Below, piece by piece: positions 42,138-63,274 of a stretch of 64,000 nucleotides of DNA. The notes under the pieces are model-generated. The model was not told where the DNA came from and made no database searches. It saw nothing but the letters and a program-made list of their open reading frames with translations. Source of the DNA: Styela clava (Eukaryota; Chordata; Ascidiacea; Stolidobranchia; Styelidae); assembly GCF_964204865.1 (NCBI RefSeq), contig NC_135250.1, forward strand, positions 19,397,395 through 19,461,394, read 5' to 3'. The position numbers and the translations under genes are program-made. The stretch's first letter is position 1, and the number at the start of each line of letters is the position of its first letter.

Positions 42138-43389
42138 ACCGCGTTTACTGTGACATTGTTCTCGGCCCCACAAAAACGGGGGTTTGTTGGTGCAACACGG
42201 CCGGAGTAAAAAAATACAAAAATGGTACGTCGTCAGTAAAAGATTGAGAACCACTGCTCTAATGAAAGTGGCACTGGACACAAGGTTATTACCCTGCCCG
42301 ATGGAATCCAAGAGCAACGTTCACATTAACTGAATAATAAACTATTGCGTCGACATGAACATATATATAACATCTGAACAATGAGTTTTTTTTACGTATT
42401 AAAAATGTAGGATGGGTGGGGTGTACCAGATTTTGAGAAAGGTTTATATGGGTGTACCATTGAAAAAAGATTGCCAGCACTAATTTAAAGCGTCATTTTT
42501 ACTGAGCTGCAAAACATCTAAAAGTAAATTAATTTTGATATAAATTAATTAAACGTAAACGACCTCTTCATTAATTCAAGTAATTTATAGGTGATCTAAA
42601 GTTCTATCCACAGCTAGCGCCAAAAACGTGCTTTTCTAAGGATCAGTATCAAATCAAAACGTCCTGTCCGAGTCGTTATGGTATTGCACTTCATAAGCGT
42701 ATCCCTTGAGGGGTCGCTCTTTTTTTATATTTTCACCTCGTTTTTTTTTATTCCTTTACTGACATGTCTGGAATCCAGCCCAATGACTTCATACCCAGAT
42801 TATGTCGACGATAGTTCCATAAATAATTTTTTATTCGAAAGTCAAAAGAAGATCACTTATACCATCATTTTGTTGTAGAATTCCTCTCGTCACTTCTGCT
42901 GCATGTTAGATAGTATTATCGCAACGAAGTGTTTGAGGTTTCAGATATTTAAATAAAACTGACTGTAATTTGCTCAGATGGTATACTGGTATTGCCCGAG
43001 TTCTCGCTTTTAGAAGTACTAGTGGATTTATTCGAACTTTTGCCCTTGGCAAAATCGGTGGCCTAGCGAGTAGCAAATTTTTGAGCTACCAATTATGGTG
43101 ATTGCAGCATTTGATATTGCAGCCCACGTTTTCTTAGCCTTGAAAATGGTGTAAATGAATGCCTTTCAAACTATTTTATCATCATTTACAGTGTAAATGT
43201 CATATACACTCACTGAAGCTATACGTTTGTTTCATATTCAAATTAAACCATAATAATATATCACGAATACCGACAACCTTATATGCTTGTTTCGTCGACG
43301 TACGCTTCAAATTTCTCATTGGCATACTCAAGCCTAATAAAACCTGTGAGTTTGCTTTGTCGCAATCATTCAAGGTTTAGTTTGACGAT

Positions 43390-43404
43390 GAACGTTTAGT
43401 TTAG
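43390..43404 (+). repeat. LINE target-site duplication, 5' copy
   Basis: GAACGTTTAGTTTAG, identical to 48754-48768. The following TTTTAGTTTAG is a second partial echo of the same word and may be extra bases added during 5' joining. Confidence 0.9.
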
Positions 43405-43419
43405 TTTTAGTTTAGTTTT

Positions 43420-43447
43420 TTCTTCGGCTCTTCGGCTAAGATCAAGC
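43420..43447 (+). other. U2 snRNA-like head of the LINE
   Basis: TCTTCGGCTCTTCGGCTAAG continues into ATCAAG. GGCTAAGATCAAG (43434-43446) is 13 bases identical to nucleotides near 19-31 of U2 snRNA, and the bases upstream align imperfectly with the U2 stem I region. U2 similarity stops after ATCAAG. It marks the start of the LINE 5' UTR. Confidence 0.6.
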
Positions 43448-43502
43448 CTTAGGAACAAGTTATAGTTGGAATTACAAGATAGTCTAAATACCTTTGGATA
43501 TT

Positions 43503-44816
43503 ATGGCCTACGCAAAAGTCGCCGCTATACCCCCAGTAATGACCACACCAAGTAATAACAGACCGCGATCTCTGATGATCGAGACGGAGGACAACATAAA
43601 TTTTGAAGGACTGCTTGGAGTTTTAAAAACAACACCCGATGTCAACCAGTACTACAATGAAATAAAAGGATTATTTGAAGTGAGAAGAGGTCTCTGGACA
43701 ATATCCTTTAAACCTACATCAAACGAAACGTCTAGTTGCAGGGATGAGTTCCTAAGCGCAACCGGTGGCAAGTTGAATTCAATGTATGGGCCTATCCACT
43801 TCATGCTACCCGCAGGTACACCGACAAGAATTTCAATCAAAGGCATACCCGATGAAACACCGTTTGCGAGGGCCGCGGCAATCATAAACAACCTAGAATG
43901 CGGCAAAATTAAAAACGCAATGAAAAACTGGCACAAAGGCACGGAAATATATAACGGTTATACCGCTTTTTTCATCACAGACTTTAACAAGGATAAACTA
44001 CCGGACTATATCATATTCGATGGAATAAGATGCAAAACGTATCTCCCGCAAGAGTTATACACTCCGACATGCGGCAGGTGTTTACAACAGGGCCATACAT
44101 TCGTCGCATGTCAGAATACACCGGTATGTAGATACTGCAAAGAGGAAGGACACCTCGTAAAACAATGCAAAAAACGTATCGACCGACACAATCAGGAAGA
44201 ACCAACCGCTTGGAACATATCTAAAAGAACCGCTAATACTAACAACAAAACAGGGATAAATACAAACCGTCACAACGTACCACAACTTAATGCAGGCATG
44301 TGCCTTTCGCCGCTATCCTCAACATTGCTAAGAGAAGAGGCAAACACAAACAGCAAACCACAAACCGAAGAGGAGAGCACACAAGCAATAAGCGATAACG
44401 AAACCTCCTCAAACTGCGAAAACGATGACTTAAACGACGAAACAAAAGATTGGTCTCTGAGCAGAGACGACTCCCAGTTAGAGAAACCGTTGGACATACC
44501 GAGAACACCTAGAAGAAAGTTAAAACCAACTTCAACAATCGGACAGACCCCCATAGTACATGAAATGACAAGACAATCGTACGTAAAAGGAATGGTTAGA
44601 GGATACGAATCCATTGACTCTTCCTCGTTTTCTGATACGTGGATTAATAACTCAGCCCCCGCTCATTTGGGAAACAGTGACTACAATCCAATTGGACAAG
44701 CCAGTGGCGCAAATAAACGAGATAGACTTAATTTGAGCTCTGCATCATCCTCGTGCACACCGCCTAACCCCAAGAAGGAGAAAGCCTCCGCCACAACCGA
44801 GCGCCCACAGACATAA
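43503..44816 (+). CDS. LINE ORF1: zinc-knuckle nucleic-acid-binding protein
   Basis: A 437-aa protein from ATG 43503. The N-terminal two fifths look like a folded domain of unknown type (IRISIKGIP-like strands: TRISIKGIPDETPFARAAAI). Two CX2CX4HX4C knuckles follow at residues about 190-203 (CGRCLQQGHTFVAC) and 209-222 (CRYCKEEGHLVKQC), and then a long polar Ser/Thr/Asn-rich tail. Knuckle-bearing ORF1 proteins of LINEs bind element RNA in ribonucleoprotein particles. The frame differs from that of ORF2. The TTG-led extension upstream adds three codons and is not preferred. Confidence 0.85.
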   Translation: MAYAKVAAIPPVMTTPSNNRPRSLMIETEDNINFEGLLGVLKTTPDVNQYYNEIKGLFEVRRGLWTISFKPTSNETSSCRDEFLSATGGKLNSMYGPIHFMLPAGTPTRISIKGIPDETPFARAAAIINNLECGKIKNAMKNWHKGTEIYNGYTAFFITDFNKDKLPDYIIFDGIRCKTYLPQELYTPTCGRCLQQGHTFVACQNTPVCRYCKEEGHLVKQCKKRIDRHNQEEPTAWNISKRTANTNNKTGINTNRHNVPQLNAGMCLSPLSSTLLREEANTNSKPQTEEESTQAISDNETSSNCENDDLNDETKDWSLSRDDSQLEKPLDIPRTPRRKLKPTSTIGQTPIVHEMTRQSYVKGMVRGYESIDSSSFSDTWINNSAPAHLGNSDYNPIGQASGANKRDRLNLSSASSSCTPPNPKKEKASATTERPQT

Positions 44817-45006
44817 ACAATCGACTGTGGCAACCAATCCACCAATCAAAAGACACCAGGAAAGATAATTGATACAAAACAAACCACACAGACATAACTT
44901 GGATATAAATAAGGATTATAACTCGGATATAAATTATGGATGTACCTAGGATCTCGAAACAAAACAAAGGGAAGTCAAAAACGTGAGTTAAATTTAAATT
45001 ACTAAA

Positions 45007-48000
45007 ATGAGCGAAATGAAAATCATATCAATAAACGTAAACGGGCTTAACCATCATAAAACGAAACTAGCCCAATTCGTATCATATGAAAAACCTGACA
45101 TTCTATGCCTACAGGAGGTCAATAAAATCAGAAACAGCATAGTAGAAGAGTGGGCAGGAAAACTGGGTTACCACATTTTCCCTAACACGCTTACCGTATT
45201 AGATCCCGAAGACAAAACCTTCAGGAAAGGCACCGCAATAATGGTAAAGAACGCCCTGATAGAAGGCGTTCAATACTCCGTTCGCGTTAAACACAGATGT
45301 TGCAGCCTAGCGCTAGAAATCGACGGACTTCGCATAGAAATAGTAAATGTGTACGCCCCCGCAAAGAGCGGCGCACCGAAAACAGAGTTTTACAAAGAAT
45401 TGGTGCAGATCTTGGAGGACATGTATTACCTAAGCCCCTTGATAGTTCTAGGGGATTTTAATGTGATCCTAGACAACCGAAATGTTTTAAACCCTTCCAA
45501 CCAGAAACACACGGCCGCGGCCAAAATTTTCAACGCTCTCCTAACAAAGCACAAGATAAGTGACTCCTTTCGACAACGAAATAAGAATAAAAGAATTTAC
45601 ACCTTCATATCCAATGCCAACCAGCAAGCCAAGAGGATTGATAGAATTTATAACTCCCGCGAAATCGACCCCTTAATTACATACGTAGGACATGCCGTGA
45701 ACACCGTAGCCGATCACGCTCTATGCCCATATATTAAACTCAGAGTTTTGAAAAATATAAGATGGGGTCGGGGGATGTGGCGGAACAATATCTCGCTATA
45801 CAAAGAAAAAGATTACTTCGAAATTATAAAAAATACATATAATAGGGCCTTGATAAACATTGAAAGTTTTGAATCTTTACTAGATTGGTGGGACAACTTT
45901 AAACTAAACACCAAAAAACAAACTATAGCATACTCAATAAAAAAAGCAAAAGAAGACAATATAACTGAACAATTGATAAGACAAAACATTGCGAATACAG
46001 TGGCCAACAAGAATAGTACAGACGTAAGAAAACTGGAAAGACTTAGGGTACAGCTAAAAAACTTGATTGACAACAAAGCCAATTATAAAACAATCCTGGC
46101 GGGCATAGAAGATCAAGAAGAAGGAGAAGAACCAACGAAGTACTTCTATGATAGGATCAAAACACGCGCAAAACAAACATCGATGGATTCTATCCAAAAT
46201 TTAAAGGGGAAGATAGTTACAAGTGAAAACGAAGTAACTAAGGCGGTAGAGGATTTCTATAACGAGCTATGGGGCATGAAGTGTAAAATAGACGAATCTC
46301 ACCAGCACCACTATATCAATCAAATGAGCGCCACACAACTCAGCCAAGATCAAAACGAAGAGATAGAAAAACCCACAAACGAGGACGAGATATTCTCTAT
46401 TATAAAAGATATGAAAAATAATAAATCCCCCGGCCCTGACGGGCTAAGCAAAGAATTCTATACAACATTTTGGCACATGATAAAAGAAAAATTGACGAAT
46501 ATGATTAATATTATCTTGAGCTTCGGCGCTCTACCGCAAAGCTCACACTATGCCAGAGTGAAATTGATATTTAAAAAGGGAAACAAAAATCTACTAAAAA
46601 ATTGGCGACCGATCTCGAATCTCAACTTTGACTACAAACTGGTTGCAAGGCTTTTAACCAAAAGACTAGAATCTCCACTCAACACATTGGTAAGCCAACA
46701 GCAAAAGAGTACCTTACCTGGACGAAGTATATTTGATGCCCATTACAACCTAGAAGCGGTTGTCCGCTACTGTCAAACCAAGCAAATTCCAGGATATTTA
46801 GTAATGATCGACAACTTGAAAGCGTTCGACAGAATAGACCATAACTTCCTTTTTAAAGTATTACACGAAATCGGCCTCAGCCCCAAAATAACTAATATCG
46901 TCAAAAACATGTACGAAGAAATTTACAACTACATAGATATTAACGGTAAAATGAGCTCCCCAATCAAAATCAATAGGGGAATTCGACAAGGATGCCCATT
47001 GAGCATGTTGTTATACATTCTAAACGCAGAACCACTAATTAGATCAGTACAACGAAATTCCGACATACATGGCATCAAACTTGGAAAATTCACACATAAA
47101 CTGGACCAATTTGCCGATGACGCCACCTACGCAGTGAGAGATATAACTTCCATTCAACAAATCTTCTTTGAATTACAAAAATACGAAAAAGCAGCAGGAC
47201 AAAAAATTAATATAGATAAAACCCAGATATTGAGTTTCACAACTGACGCAGCACAACGTCTCCGGAAATCCAACTATAATACCCACCATAAAGATACAGC
47301 AAAAATCTTGGGGATATATTATGGATTAGGGCGGGAAACAATAACATGGGACGAAACACTTGTCAAAATAACCAGAAAATTAAACTTTTTAAAAACACGA
47401 AAACTCACCTGGATTGGAAAACTAACAGTAATAAATTCCCTGATCATGTCACTAATAATATTTCACGCGAGATTTGTAGAAATACCGCCAGTATATCTCA
47501 ACAAGGTACAACACCTAGTTGCTAAATACCTATGGTTCCCCGAGGGAATGGAGGCGATAAAGAGAACCACGCTACAACGGCCATGGTTAGAAGGCGGCAT
47601 AAATATGCCCAATATCAAAATTAAAATTTCAGCATGTATAGCAGAGCGAATAAAAATACTAAGCAATATCGATACACCTTACCTTTTTTGGCATCAGGAA
47701 GCAGTCTATGCTTTAGGATCCAAAATCATAAAAAACAACCCAAGCTTATATACAAATTCTACCCCACATCTCCCCTTCGTCCCCAAAATCTGGCAAAAAT
47801 ATTTGGATACAACAAAGGGAATACATCTTACCAAACAACAGTGGGCTGGCATGAAGCACAAAGACATATACAGAAATCTCCTATACAACCTGAAAACTGA
47901 GTCTCCATACCCAACGGGAATAGATTGGACTTGCGTTCACGTAAAGCAAAGAACTCTGAAACATAAAACAACAAACAAAGAGAAGATATGTTCGTACAGA

Positions 48001-48495
48001 ATAGTGGCTGATGGGTACATCTTTGGGAATAAAGCGCGGAAAAGATCTATGTTTAGCGATGCGCACGGCCAAAGAAAACTGCTAAAATGCAAATTCTGTG
48101 GAAGCCGTGAAGACAATACCCTACACATTTTCTTACACTGCTCTTACATTTCACGACACCTTTCCAAAACCACGGGCATACTGAACAGGACCCTTAAAAT
48201 ACCAGTACAAATATCTAAAGAAAATATCTTCTACAACTCTTACACCATGCCCAACCAGACAGTTCAGACCATAACCATAAAACTATTTTTAATATTCAAA
48301 TTAGCAATAATCAACTTCAAAATCAAGTTAGATATAGAAAATAGAACAGTCGATCCGAGCGAGGACAAAATTATCCCCAAAACAACTCGAAAATGGTCCG
48401 ATTTTATCAACCAACTTGACAAAAAATTTCCCAAGGTATACACATCCAATTTGAAACCTAATTGGAAAGAAATACTTGCGGGGTACGAACAATAA
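45007..48495 (+). CDS. LINE ORF2: endonuclease-reverse transcriptase
   Basis: 1,162 aa, intact. Residues 1-245 form an AP-type endonuclease with the expected residues: N10 (SINVNG), E37 (CLQEV), Y116 (VYAP), D150/N152 (LGDFNV), D212 (RIDRIY) and D236-H237 (ADH). Residues about 470-760 form the reverse transcriptase: KSPGPDGLSKEF, RPISNLN (534-540), catalytic D602 in MIDNLKAFDRIDH, RGIRQGCPLS (657-666) and FADD (702-705). A C-terminal CX2CX8HX4C finger lies at 1028-1045 (CKFCGSREDNTLHIFLHC). Such proteins nick the target and prime reverse transcription there. No disabling change is visible. Confidence 0.95.
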   Translation: MSEMKIISINVNGLNHHKTKLAQFVSYEKPDILCLQEVNKIRNSIVEEWAGKLGYHIFPNTLTVLDPEDKTFRKGTAIMVKNALIEGVQYSVRVKHRCCSLALEIDGLRIEIVNVYAPAKSGAPKTEFYKELVQILEDMYYLSPLIVLGDFNVILDNRNVLNPSNQKHTAAAKIFNALLTKHKISDSFRQRNKNKRIYTFISNANQQAKRIDRIYNSREIDPLITYVGHAVNTVADHALCPYIKLRVLKNIRWGRGMWRNNISLYKEKDYFEIIKNTYNRALINIESFESLLDWWDNFKLNTKKQTIAYSIKKAKEDNITEQLIRQNIANTVANKNSTDVRKLERLRVQLKNLIDNKANYKTILAGIEDQEEGEEPTKYFYDRIKTRAKQTSMDSIQNLKGKIVTSENEVTKAVEDFYNELWGMKCKIDESHQHHYINQMSATQLSQDQNEEIEKPTNEDEIFSIIKDMKNNKSPGPDGLSKEFYTTFWHMIKEKLTNMINIILSFGALPQSSHYARVKLIFKKGNKNLLKNWRPISNLNFDYKLVARLLTKRLESPLNTLVSQQQKSTLPGRSIFDAHYNLEAVVRYCQTKQIPGYLVMIDNLKAFDRIDHNFLFKVLHEIGLSPKITNIVKNMYEEIYNYIDINGKMSSPIKINRGIRQGCPLSMLLYILNAEPLIRSVQRNSDIHGIKLGKFTHKLDQFADDATYAVRDITSIQQIFFELQKYEKAAGQKINIDKTQILSFTTDAAQRLRKSNYNTHHKDTAKILGIYYGLGRETITWDETLVKITRKLNFLKTRKLTWIGKLTVINSLIMSLIIFHARFVEIPPVYLNKVQHLVAKYLWFPEGMEAIKRTTLQRPWLEGGINMPNIKIKISACIAERIKILSNIDTPYLFWHQEAVYALGSKIIKNNPSLYTNSTPHLPFVPKIWQKYLDTTKGIHLTKQQWAGMKHKDIYRNLLYNLKTESPYPTGIDWTCVHVKQRTLKHKTTNKEKICSYRIVADGYIFGNKARKRSMFSDAHGQRKLLKCKFCGSREDNTLHIFLHCSYISRHLSKTTGILNRTLKIPVQISKENIFYNSYTMPNQTVQTITIKLFLIFKLAIINFKIKLDIENRTVDPSEDKIIPKTTRKWSDFINQLDKKFPKVYTSNLKPNWKEILAGYEQ

Positions 48496-48753
48496 AATAA
48501 CGAGAAAACCAGATCCTAACAACAATAAATGTAATGAACTTTTTATCTATGCCACCCACAAATGGTAGCATACTCCTGAGAATACCATCAAACAACCCAA
48601 CGGAAGTGATGAGTGGATGTCATCTGACCGCCGCATATGCGGCAATGTGATTGCGAGGATTAATACCGATACGACTCGGGTATGACGTGTTATTATATGT
48701 AACACTGATCCGAGGCAGACCATACATACTCTGATCCGATAAAAAAAAAAAAA
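48496..48753 (+). other. LINE 3' UTR and poly(A) tail
   Basis: It contains the perfect 14-bp palindrome GCCGCATATGCGGC (48630-48643), which could form a hairpin in the RNA. LINE reverse transcriptases of some families recognise a 3' hairpin, so this is a candidate recognition element. It ends in CTGATCCGAT and 13 A. Confidence 0.7.
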
Positions 48754-48768
48754 GAACGTTTAGTTTAG
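48754..48768 (+). repeat. LINE target-site duplication, 3' copy
   Basis: GAACGTTTAGTTTAG directly after the poly(A) tail, continuing into CTGTGAGGTAGTATTGGG of the satellite. Confidence 0.9.
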
Positions 48769-49293: not shown

Positions 49294-50046
49294 ACCGCAT
49301 TTACTGTGACATTGTTCTCGGCCCCACAAAAAACGGGGGTTTGTTGGTGCAACGCGGCCGGAGTAAAAAAATACAAAAATGGTACGTCTTCAGTAAAAGA
49401 TTGAGAACCACTGCTCTAATGAAAGTAGCACTGGACACAAGGTTATTACCCTGCCCGATGGAATCCAAGAGCAACGTTCACATTAACTGAATAATAAACT
49501 ATTGCGTCGACATGTCATTTACACTCACTGAAGCTATACGTTTGTTTCATATTCAAATTAACCCATAATAATATATCACGAATACCGACAACCTTATATG
49601 CTTGTTTCGTCGACGTACGCTTCAAATTTCTCATTGGCATACTCAAGCCTAATAAAACCTGTGAGTTTGCGTAATCGCAAGCATTCAAGGTTTAGTTTGA
49701 CGATGAACGTTTAGTTTAGCTGTGAGCTGTTCAGTGGGTTGAAGATAGGAAGGCGAGGGAGATAGGACACGGGTACATGTAGTGAATGGTCAGGGGAGAG
49801 GTCAGTGAAACGAGACTGGGTAGTTGAGGTAGATATGACAATGGGTCGTTGGTAGAAAGGTTGGGGAGGAAAGTGCAGAGGTAAGTAGCAGTAGAGGGAG
49901 GTGAAGAATAAAGGTCGCAAATTCTTCGGACGCAAATTCTCTCGCGATTTTGCATGCAATTAATACGTTGTTACTGCTCATAATTAATATGTTGAAACTA
50001 TTGCACGACAGTCTAAAATACATATAGTACCATAAAAGAATTCTAT
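49294..50046 (+). repeat. Satellite unit 5, internally deleted (0.75 kb)
   Basis: The sequence jumps from TTGCGTCGACATG to TCATTTACACTCACTG at about 49514, removing roughly 0.84 kb including the tRNA-like segment. The only microhomology is ATG. The G-rich tract is also shortened (about 49725-49915). Confidence 0.9.
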
Positions 50047-61444: not shown

Positions 61445-61553
61445 AAAACAGAGGAACGCTTCACAATTGTGCGTGTCATCTTTGCGCTGGGGCCATGTTA
61501 ATCTTCTTTGTATCGTCCCAATTTTTTCATATGTACACTCGAAAGTAGTACAC
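61445..61553 (-). pseudogene. U6 snRNA copy 1, degenerate
   Basis: It is recognisable by GAAGATTAACATGGCCCC and GATGACACGCACAATTGTGA, but the ACAGAG box reads ACAAAG and the catalytic AGC triad reads AAC. Both elements are essential for splicing in U6. The 5' stem TGTAC(T)ACT-TTCG-AGT-GTACA is perfect. Upstream (higher coordinates) ACATATA lies about 28 bp from +1, as in a pol III type 3 promoter. Confidence 0.85.
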
Positions 61554-61843
61554 TCCACACAATCCCAGTGGTCGTATATGTACGTAGTAATTAGAAGTCA
61601 AATATCTATTATAGTCGCTGTAATAGTAGTAGCAGAATGTTTCACCGAAATGACCATTGGTTGAAGGTATTTAATTTAAATATGATATGTCTGTTTGGGA
61701 GGCGAAATAAACCGTTATATATGATATTACCATCGATTGAAAGTTTATAACTTAGACTTTTCACTAATCGATTCATACTTTTTAGAGAAATAGTCAAATT
61801 CACTGGTGTAATTAAACAGAGTTTGAACTGTTAGTAATATTTC

Positions 61844-61894
61844 AAAAATAGAGGAACGCTTCACGATTGTGCGTGTCATCCTCGCGCAGGGGCC

Positions 61895-61925
<31 letters not shown>

Positions 61926-61953
61926 TTCATAAGTACACTCGAAAGTAGCACAC
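61844..61953 (-). ncRNA. U6: U6 spliceosomal RNA, copy 2 (possibly functional)
   Basis: It carries intact ATTGGAACGATACAGAGAAG and AGATTAGCATGGCCCC and a TTTTT terminator at 61844-61848. There is one change in the internal stem-loop (GCGCGAGG for GCGCAAGG) and there are changes in the 5' stem (GTGTGC, GTACTTATG). U6 pairs with U2 and the 5' splice site in the spliceosome core. A TATA-like element sits at about -28. Confidence 0.85.
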
Positions 61954-62285
61954 TCCACACACACCCAGTGGTCGTATATGTACGTAGTAATTAGAAGTCT
62001 AATACCTATTATGGTGGCTGTAATAGTAGTAGCAAAATGTTTCATCCGAAATGACCATTGGTTGAAGGTATTTAATTTAAATACGGTATGTCTGTTTAAT
62101 GAGAAGAAACAAACCGTTATATATGATATTACCAACGATTGAAAGTTTATAACTTGGAATTTTCACTCATCGATTCATACTTTGTAGACAAATAGTCAAA
62201 TTAACTGGTTTAATTGAACAGAGATTGAACTGTTAGTAATATTCCGCTTTTTTCCTGAAATTGAGTGAAATTAGAAATTTCCCAC

Positions 62286-62335
62286 AAAACAGAGGAACGC
62301 TTCACGATTGTGCGTGTCATCCTTGCGCAGGGACC

Positions 62336-62366
<31 letters not shown>

Positions 62367-62394
62367 TTCCTATGTACACTCGAAAGTAGAACAC
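62286..62394 (-). ncRNA. U6: U6 spliceosomal RNA, copy 3 (best candidate)
   Basis: It has intact ACAGAGA and AGC motifs, a canonical CCCTGCGCAAGGATGACAC stem-loop and a TTTT stop. It differs from the usual GGCCCC by one base (GGTCCC) and has TTCTACTTTCGAG in the 5' stem. The 5' stem sequence is unlike the standard GTGCTCGCTTCGGCAGCAC, but it keeps a TTCG loop. Confidence 0.88.
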
Positions 62395-62726
62395 TCCACA
62401 CACTCCCAGTGGTCGTATATGCACGTAGTAATTAGAAGTCAAATATCTATTATGGTAGCTGTAATAGTAGTAGCAAAATGTTTCCTCCGAAATGACCATT
62501 GGTTGAAGGTATTTAATTTAAATACGATATGTCCGTTTAAGAGGAGAAACAAACCGTTATATATGATATTACCATCGATTAAAAGTTTATAACTTGGACT
62601 TTTCACTCATCGATTCATACTTTTTAGACAAATAGTCAAATTAACTGGTTTAATTGAACAGAGTCTGAACTGTTAGTAATATTTCACTTTTTTCGTGAAA
62701 TTTATTGAAATTAGAGATTTCCCACG

Positions 62727-62834
62727 AAATAGAGGAACGCTTTACGATTGTGCGTGTCATCCTTGCGCAGGGGCCATGCTAATCTTCTCGGTATCGTTCC
62801 AATTTTTTCATATGTACAATCGAAAGTAGTACAC
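62727..62834 (-). pseudogene. U6 snRNA copy 4, ACAGAG box altered
   Basis: GATACCGAGAAGATTAGC replaces GATACAGAGAAGATTAGC, a change in the 5' splice-site-pairing box. The 3' end has only three T (CTATTTCG), which would be a weak pol III stop. A base-pair in the 5' stem is also lost (TTCGATT). Confidence 0.85.
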
Positions 62835-63166
62835 TCCACACACTCCCAGTGGTCGTATATGTACGTAGTGATTAGAAGTCAAATATCTATTATGGTGGCT
62901 GTAATAATAGTAGCAAAATGTTTCCTCCGAAATTAACATTGGTTGAAGGTATTTAATTTAAATACGATATGTCCGTTTAAGAGGAGAAACAAACCGTTAT
63001 ATATGATATTACCATCGATTAAAAGTTTATAACTTGGACTTTTCACTCATCGATTCATACTTTTTAGACAAATAGTCAAATTAACTGGTTTAATTGAACA
63101 GAGTCTGAACTGTTAGTAATATTTCACTTTTTTCGTGAAATTTATTGAAATTAGAGATTTCCCACG

Positions 63167-63274
63167 AAATAGAGGAACGCTTTACGATTGTGCGTGTCAT
63201 CCTTGCGCAGGGGCCATGCTAATCTTCTCGGTATCGTTCCAATTTTTTCATATGTACAATCGAAAGTAGTACAC
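63167..63274 (-). pseudogene. U6 snRNA copy 5, identical to copy 4
   Basis: Its sequence is the same as copy 4, and the flanks match at a spacing of 440 bp, so it arose by the latest tandem duplication in the cluster. It has the same ACCGAG box and short T-run. Confidence 0.85.

Follow-up and report, generated by a model that had tools for sequence, protein, structure and literature searches.

Spliceosomal U2 snRNA sequence at the 5′ ends of LINE families in the ascidian Styela clava

The window LINE and its U2-like start

The window, meaning the whole 64,000-nucleotide stretch of S. clava DNA analysed here, carries on its forward strand a LINE flanked by a target-site duplication (Table 1). 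LINE-1 ORF2p provides the best solved matches for its ORF2 (best E 6.9e-72), and its ORF1 contains a CCHC zinc knuckle scoring 20.1, just below the Pfam cut-off of 20.8. With the ORF2 domains, an A tail and a target-site duplication all present, the element is a LINE-1-like LINE with an APE endonuclease. Its target is a repeated sequence (window 43190–43404 and 49500–49730), the uninterrupted copy of which, approximately 6.3 kb away, represents the empty site; here the target paralogue without insertion lies at 49705–49719, and comparison within the window found no counterpart in it of the 16-base filler that precedes the element. The window also holds, on the minus strand at 61445–63272, five U6 snRNA copies with starts approximately 400–440 bases apart, two of them identical and the others differing at several positions; together they make up a small array of variant U6 genes in tandem.

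Table 1. Layout of the window LINE and its insertion site (positions in the window).
Feature	Position	Strand	Detail	Basis
Target-site duplication, 5′ copy	43390–43404	+	15 bp, GAACGTTTAGTTTAG	matching copy at 48754–48768
Filler	43405–43420	+	16 bases, T and TTTAG repeats, between 5′ duplication and element	window sequence
LINE, window element	43421–48753	+		window sequence
Inner degenerate U2-like head	43421–43446	+	stem I and GGCTAAGATCAAG	U2 alignment, Rfam, siblings
ORF1	43503–44816	+	437 aa with stop	open reading frame, Pfam
ORF2	45007–48495	+	1162 aa with stop; LINE-1-like, with reverse transcriptase and an APE-type endonuclease	
3′ UTR and A tail	48496–48753	+	tail 48741–48753	common to siblings
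Target-site duplication, 3′ copy	48754–48768	+		window sequence

The original prediction held that the start of this LINE resembles U2 snRNA, and this has been borne out, with the sibling copies described below as the decisive evidence. From 43421 the element reads TCTTCGGCTCTTCGGCTAAGATCAAG, in which 21 of 26 bases are those of canonical U2 when aligned from U2 nt 6, and which includes GGCTAAGATCAAG at 43434–43446. The best local score of a 221-base region against two host U2 5′ ends was 21, compared with a maximum of 17 among 5000 first-order Markov shuffles of the same region, while no other tile of the window, on either strand, scored more than 15. The Rfam U2 model places the start on stem I and AAGAUCAAG, assigning the lone window copy, in a search of 301 bases, 13.4 bits (E 1.7), far short of the gathering score of 46, and a scan of the whole window at the gathering threshold reported no U2; taken as a single test, this covariance score would make the observation look weak. 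A conserved RNA fold was considered for the head and rejected, as stretches of 103, 70 and 35 nt were no more stable than shuffles (z −0.71, −0.21 and −0.15, respectively), even though stem I does form; the first 100 nt of host U2 gave z −5.24.

Sibling copies of the window LINE

A search with the 5′ region of the window LINE returned at least six places, the window included, and thus at least five siblings, which together are termed family A (the letters A–D are our own labels). Each sibling locus has three equivalent names: L002, L037 and L044; L003, L038 and L047; L004, L039 and L046; L005, L040 and L043; and L006, L041 and L045. The inner motif is present in all five (with one substitution in L006/L041), and in all five it is preceded by the same order of elements: an exact U2 5′ end, a linker, and the bases ATCGA. 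With ATCGA restored from the siblings, the inner head reaches U2 nt 1 and aligns to U2 nt 1–31 at 25 of 31 bases. The outer heads, compared as had been suggested with a host U2 gene (L007), are identical to it over nt 1–40, 1–40, 2–40, 4–40 and 1–38, and under the Rfam U2 model L043 reaches 48.1 bits (E 4.7e-7), above the gathering score, whereas L047, at 43.2 bits, falls below it.

These copies confirm the U2-like piece as part of the element itself, the inner motif being shared and an exact U2 head standing outside it. That the piece lies directly at the element's start is true of the window copy; its siblings, however, begin further upstream, with the second U2 head. A start elsewhere in other copies had been named as counting against the prediction, but the start that they do have is the better match to U2. 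Since the siblings continue upstream into this exact head, the window copy is a 5′-shortened member of the family, lacking 77 nt of 5′ sequence (68 relative to L047), and its own start is an older, inner U2-like relic, not the head of the full-length element.

Identity to the window element over its whole length is 99.6% for L039 and 99.1% for L041; internal deletions occur in L037 and L040, and L038 is truncated and adjoins an inverted piece of ORF2. Four A copies at unrelated sites, with different genomic flanks, have the junction U2(1–40)-AGTAGTA in common, so the head has been inherited and passed on through RNA. The junction of L047 could reflect a 9-nt deletion between AGTA repeats. A target-site duplication encloses head and LINE together in two of the five siblings, L039 (unusually long, at approximately 56 nt) and L041 (GGGATCT, only 7 nt), and flank comparison gave no clear duplication for L037, L038 and L040; for the family overall, window included, this makes three of six copies. 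The 3′ flanks of the five copies that retain a 3′ end (window, L037, L039, L040 and L041) are not U2, L038 being the truncated copy.

The two heads of family A are separated by the linker of approximately 32 nt. An origin of the linker from U2 stem IIa was rejected, as only ACCTGA matches, and an Rfam search admitting E values up to 5 placed no other family on the linker of either L043 or L047. Among separate observations on these loci, L039/L046 is inserted beside the A tail of a more distant LINE with a similar 3′ end (37% ORF2 identity, L004). A further relative, with 36.5% ORF1 identity, lies at approximately 5000–6501 of L040; its 5′ UTR has GGTTCGCTGTTTAATTA in common with family D, and contains an extra insert and no visible U2 head.

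U2 heads in four LINE families

A search with the outer head brought up further LINEs (40 of 237 candidates scored), and the phenomenon is larger than originally described. The U2 27-mer CTTCTCGGCCTTTTGGCTAAGATCAAG occurs in the genome at 17 sites when up to three mismatches are allowed, and at 13 of these exactly, compared with none for the same pattern read backwards. Eight sites correspond to places of U2 genes or to an array on contig C6 (three on C6 being assigned by position only); the other nine are all exact and are all 5′ ends of LINEs with a related ORF1 downstream. These nine heads belong to four families: A, with five copies; B (L074); C (L078); and D (L077 and L086). The elements of B to D lie on C2, C6 (near 20.26 Mb), C5 and C17. 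ORF1, present in all four, is 31–45% identical between them, and ORF2 is present in family A. In families B to D the exact U2 match extends over nt 4–50 (B), 2–36 (C), and 2–35 and 1–33 (D), where end points are limits of exact matching, to which chance agreement may contribute a base or two. The heads are therefore U2 and part of the element in four families; in every one of the nine, U2 is in the sense orientation and starts at nt 1–4, and across the families it ends at nt 33, 35, 36, 38, 40 or 50.

Under the Rfam U2 model, six head loci scored 37.3–54.1 bits (E 1.8e-8 to 1.9e-4), two of them, L074 and L043, reaching the gathering score. Past the heads, the 5′ UTRs appear by eye to be unrelated between families. 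Upstream, comparison of the nine heads with six U2 genes (up to 400 nt each) detected no U2 gene promoter sequence (best E 0.11). Mutual comparison of the upstream regions showed dispersed repeats common to L086 and L043, and to L086 and L077, which were not counted as belonging to the element. In D, one copy lacks a base that the other has at the junction, and a substitution also separates the two; as these differences are explicable by mutation, and that of L047 by deletion, variation of the junction within a family is not proven.

The array on C6 (G000:C6:17529476-17788488, L011–L036) is a large one, composed of variant U2 genes that are often in repeat units of approximately 1169 bp. Most of these genes start with TCGCTTCTTCGGCCTATTGG and not with the canonical U2 5′ end, and the array differs from the outer heads; the inner head of the window LINE has TCTTCGGC in common with it.

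In two families the heads are stacked on older snRNA-like ones, which they abut or almost abut. In family C, U2 nt 36 is followed immediately by ATACTTACCTG, the first bases of U1 from its nt 1, and a 39-nt alignment to the U1 consensus scored 20 (shuffle maximum 16, n=5000); in the Rfam model this part is weak (6.9 bits, E 7.3), and it is absent from a larger Rfam scan. The arrangement would thus be exact U2 over degenerate U2 in family A, and exact U2 over what appears to be degenerate U1 in family C. In family B it is the sequence upstream of U2, separated from it by 29 bases, that aligns to another snRNA, namely nt 4–55 of the U5 consensus, with 30 exact bases around loop I, a score of 36 (shuffle maximum 17, n=5000), and 35.4 bits in Rfam (E 0.02; gathering score 40). 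This is perhaps a U5 head stacked over exact U2, although it may also be a neighbouring U5 gene or pseudogene. Past the head of family B, the best score to U1 was 11, a value attained in 46 of 5000 shuffles; the 5′ UTRs of A and D gave no signal for U1 or U5 when alignments were compared with shuffles, and the approximately 150 nt upstream of the eight other heads yielded nothing, with best scores of 10 for U5 and 9 for U1.

Origin and significance of the snRNA heads

Template switching, suggested at the outset as a source of the U2-like piece, is the best fit among the explanations weighed, because the heads start at U2 nt 1–4, end variably by family, and sit on older U2- or U1-like heads. 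We therefore consider it probable that these LINE 5′ ends were built from spliceosomal snRNA captured by a jump of the reverse transcriptase, with some heads subsequently inherited and overlaid; the jump itself we infer from the pattern of the ends. During target-primed reverse transcription the LINE enzyme, on arriving at the 5′ end of the LINE RNA, would move to another RNA, most often U2 snRNA, which it would enter within the single-stranded stretch after stem I or shortly past it and copy to U2 nt 1, such that the new copy would begin with U2 nt 1 to about 33–50. In family A, RNA bearing the head was made again, from U2 nt 1 or from upstream, and repeated capture and inheritance would produce stacked heads. 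Such end-to-internal jumping accounts for the starts at or near snRNA nt 1 and for their sense orientation, as well as for the variable limits past U2 stem I and for stacking on earlier heads that had begun at nt 1 themselves. As the very first bases have been transmitted from differing genomic sites, the start site would seem to be set from inside the element, which suggests, short of proof, an internal promoter placing transcription start at the old U2 nt 1. A part of the U2-like piece in promoter function or RNA recognition, put forward at the outset as well, would be putative. The duplication enclosing head and LINE in two of the five A siblings speaks for jumping. Counted against it are the three A siblings with no clear duplication, the junction differences within families that mutation or deletion could explain, the linker in A, the poor Rfam score of the U1-like part, the U5 match and four of six U2 head loci below gathering, and the report that template switching in mammals mostly involves U6 or U6atac, not U2 (PMC4476161).

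The main rival route would start from a LINE copy, ancestral or active, residing inside a U2 gene: a U2-LINE co-transcript driven by the U2 promoter would be inserted at other sites, and tandem heads would result when the element went through a U2 gene again. This would provide a promoter and account for starts at nt 1, and is attractive for family A, whose head ends at U2 nt 38 or 40, beside the insertion site of the U2-targeting LINEs Keno and Utopia, Keno having an APE-like endonuclease of the same type as the window element (PMC4640811). Moreover, the 5′ junctions of U2-targeting LINEs are reported to vary (PMC4640811), and so the ends of the heads alone cannot decide against it. It fits families B to D less well, however, where heads end at 33, 35, 36 and 50; the heads are not preceded by U2 promoter sequence, the U2 loci L007–L036 with approximately 1.5 kb on each side, from a U2 gene search that scored 46 of 25574 candidates, gave no match to ORF1 or ORF2, and U1 joined at its nt 1 is left unexplained. 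On balance, a source within U2 genes appears unlikely. Fusion at the RNA level, in which LINE RNA, prior to its reverse transcription, would be ligated to a U2 5′ fragment cleaved past stem I, or would be joined to it in a splicing by-product, is improbable: pieces of 33–50 nt could be cleavage products, and RNA ligation and trans-splicing have been proposed for mammalian chimeras (PMC13174262), but the U2 fragment is hypothetical and the case here is built from sequence. That the window motif arose by chance or convergence, without derivation from U2, is very improbable. The 13.4 bits of the lone copy and the z of −0.15 for its 35-nt stretch would allow it; against this stand the clear shuffle test (21, with shuffles reaching 17 at most), the exact U2 head that shortly precedes the motif in all five siblings found, and the finding that every one of the nine 27-mer sites away from U2 gene places is a LINE head. 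For the outer heads, chance is already refuted.

SINEs with heads derived from U1 or U2 snRNA, named SINEU, were reportedly described by Kojima in 2015, and SINEU are cited in PMC4640811 and PMC13174262. They resemble the present elements in being mobile elements headed by a spliceosomal snRNA; SINEU, however, are SINEs without proteins, whereas those described here are LINEs with open reading frames and hence not members. Besides such snRNA-headed SINEs, both snRNA/LINE-1 chimeras and U2-targeting LINEs are already known. Template switching from LINE RNA onto snRNAs has been reported for several LINE clades (PMC4476161), and either switching or RNA ligation has been invoked for the mammalian chimeras (PMC4476161; PMC13174262). 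As in all nine heads here, where sense snRNA reaching nt 1–4 is joined to a LINE, the small RNA of those chimeras is in sense at the 5′ side of the LINE; they are, however, mostly of U6 or U6atac, and are drawn with 5′-truncated L1 in these two sources, while the S. clava heads are of U2 on ORF1-bearing LINEs, with an intact ORF2 in some A copies, inheritance in A, occurrence in four families, and stacking. Keno and Utopia, the latter with a restriction-like endonuclease, lie in U2 genes with a 3′ flank from U2 nt 39 (PMC4640811); they share with family A a tie to U2, and their insertion point is near the end of its head, but A copies lie outside U2 genes, half of them with target-site duplications, which sets the family apart from both as described there. 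A literature search, made without Repbase and most subscription papers, returned work on chimeras, citations of SINEU and U2-targeting LINEs; it found no LINE family with a U2 head, and nothing on U2 heads that are stacked and inherited in several families of LINEs.

It has long been asked by what means LINEs maintain or recover a functional 5′ end and promoter, a question for which exact snRNA heads over older degenerate ones would constitute a natural record of 5′-end renewal. The families point to a preference for U2, unlike the preference for U6 reported for mammals (PMC4476161). As a tentative extension of the template-jumping model, the 5′ ends of spliceosomal snRNAs may be for this whole LINE group a 5′ module that can be renewed. 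Each lineage would re-cap itself with U2, and also U1 and U5, and the next generation would use the captured head to start transcription or as an RNP signal, before that head is replaced, or degrades and is overlaid again. Such LINE families would make both the mechanism, end-to-internal jumping, and its use, in start-site placement and RNP handling, testable.
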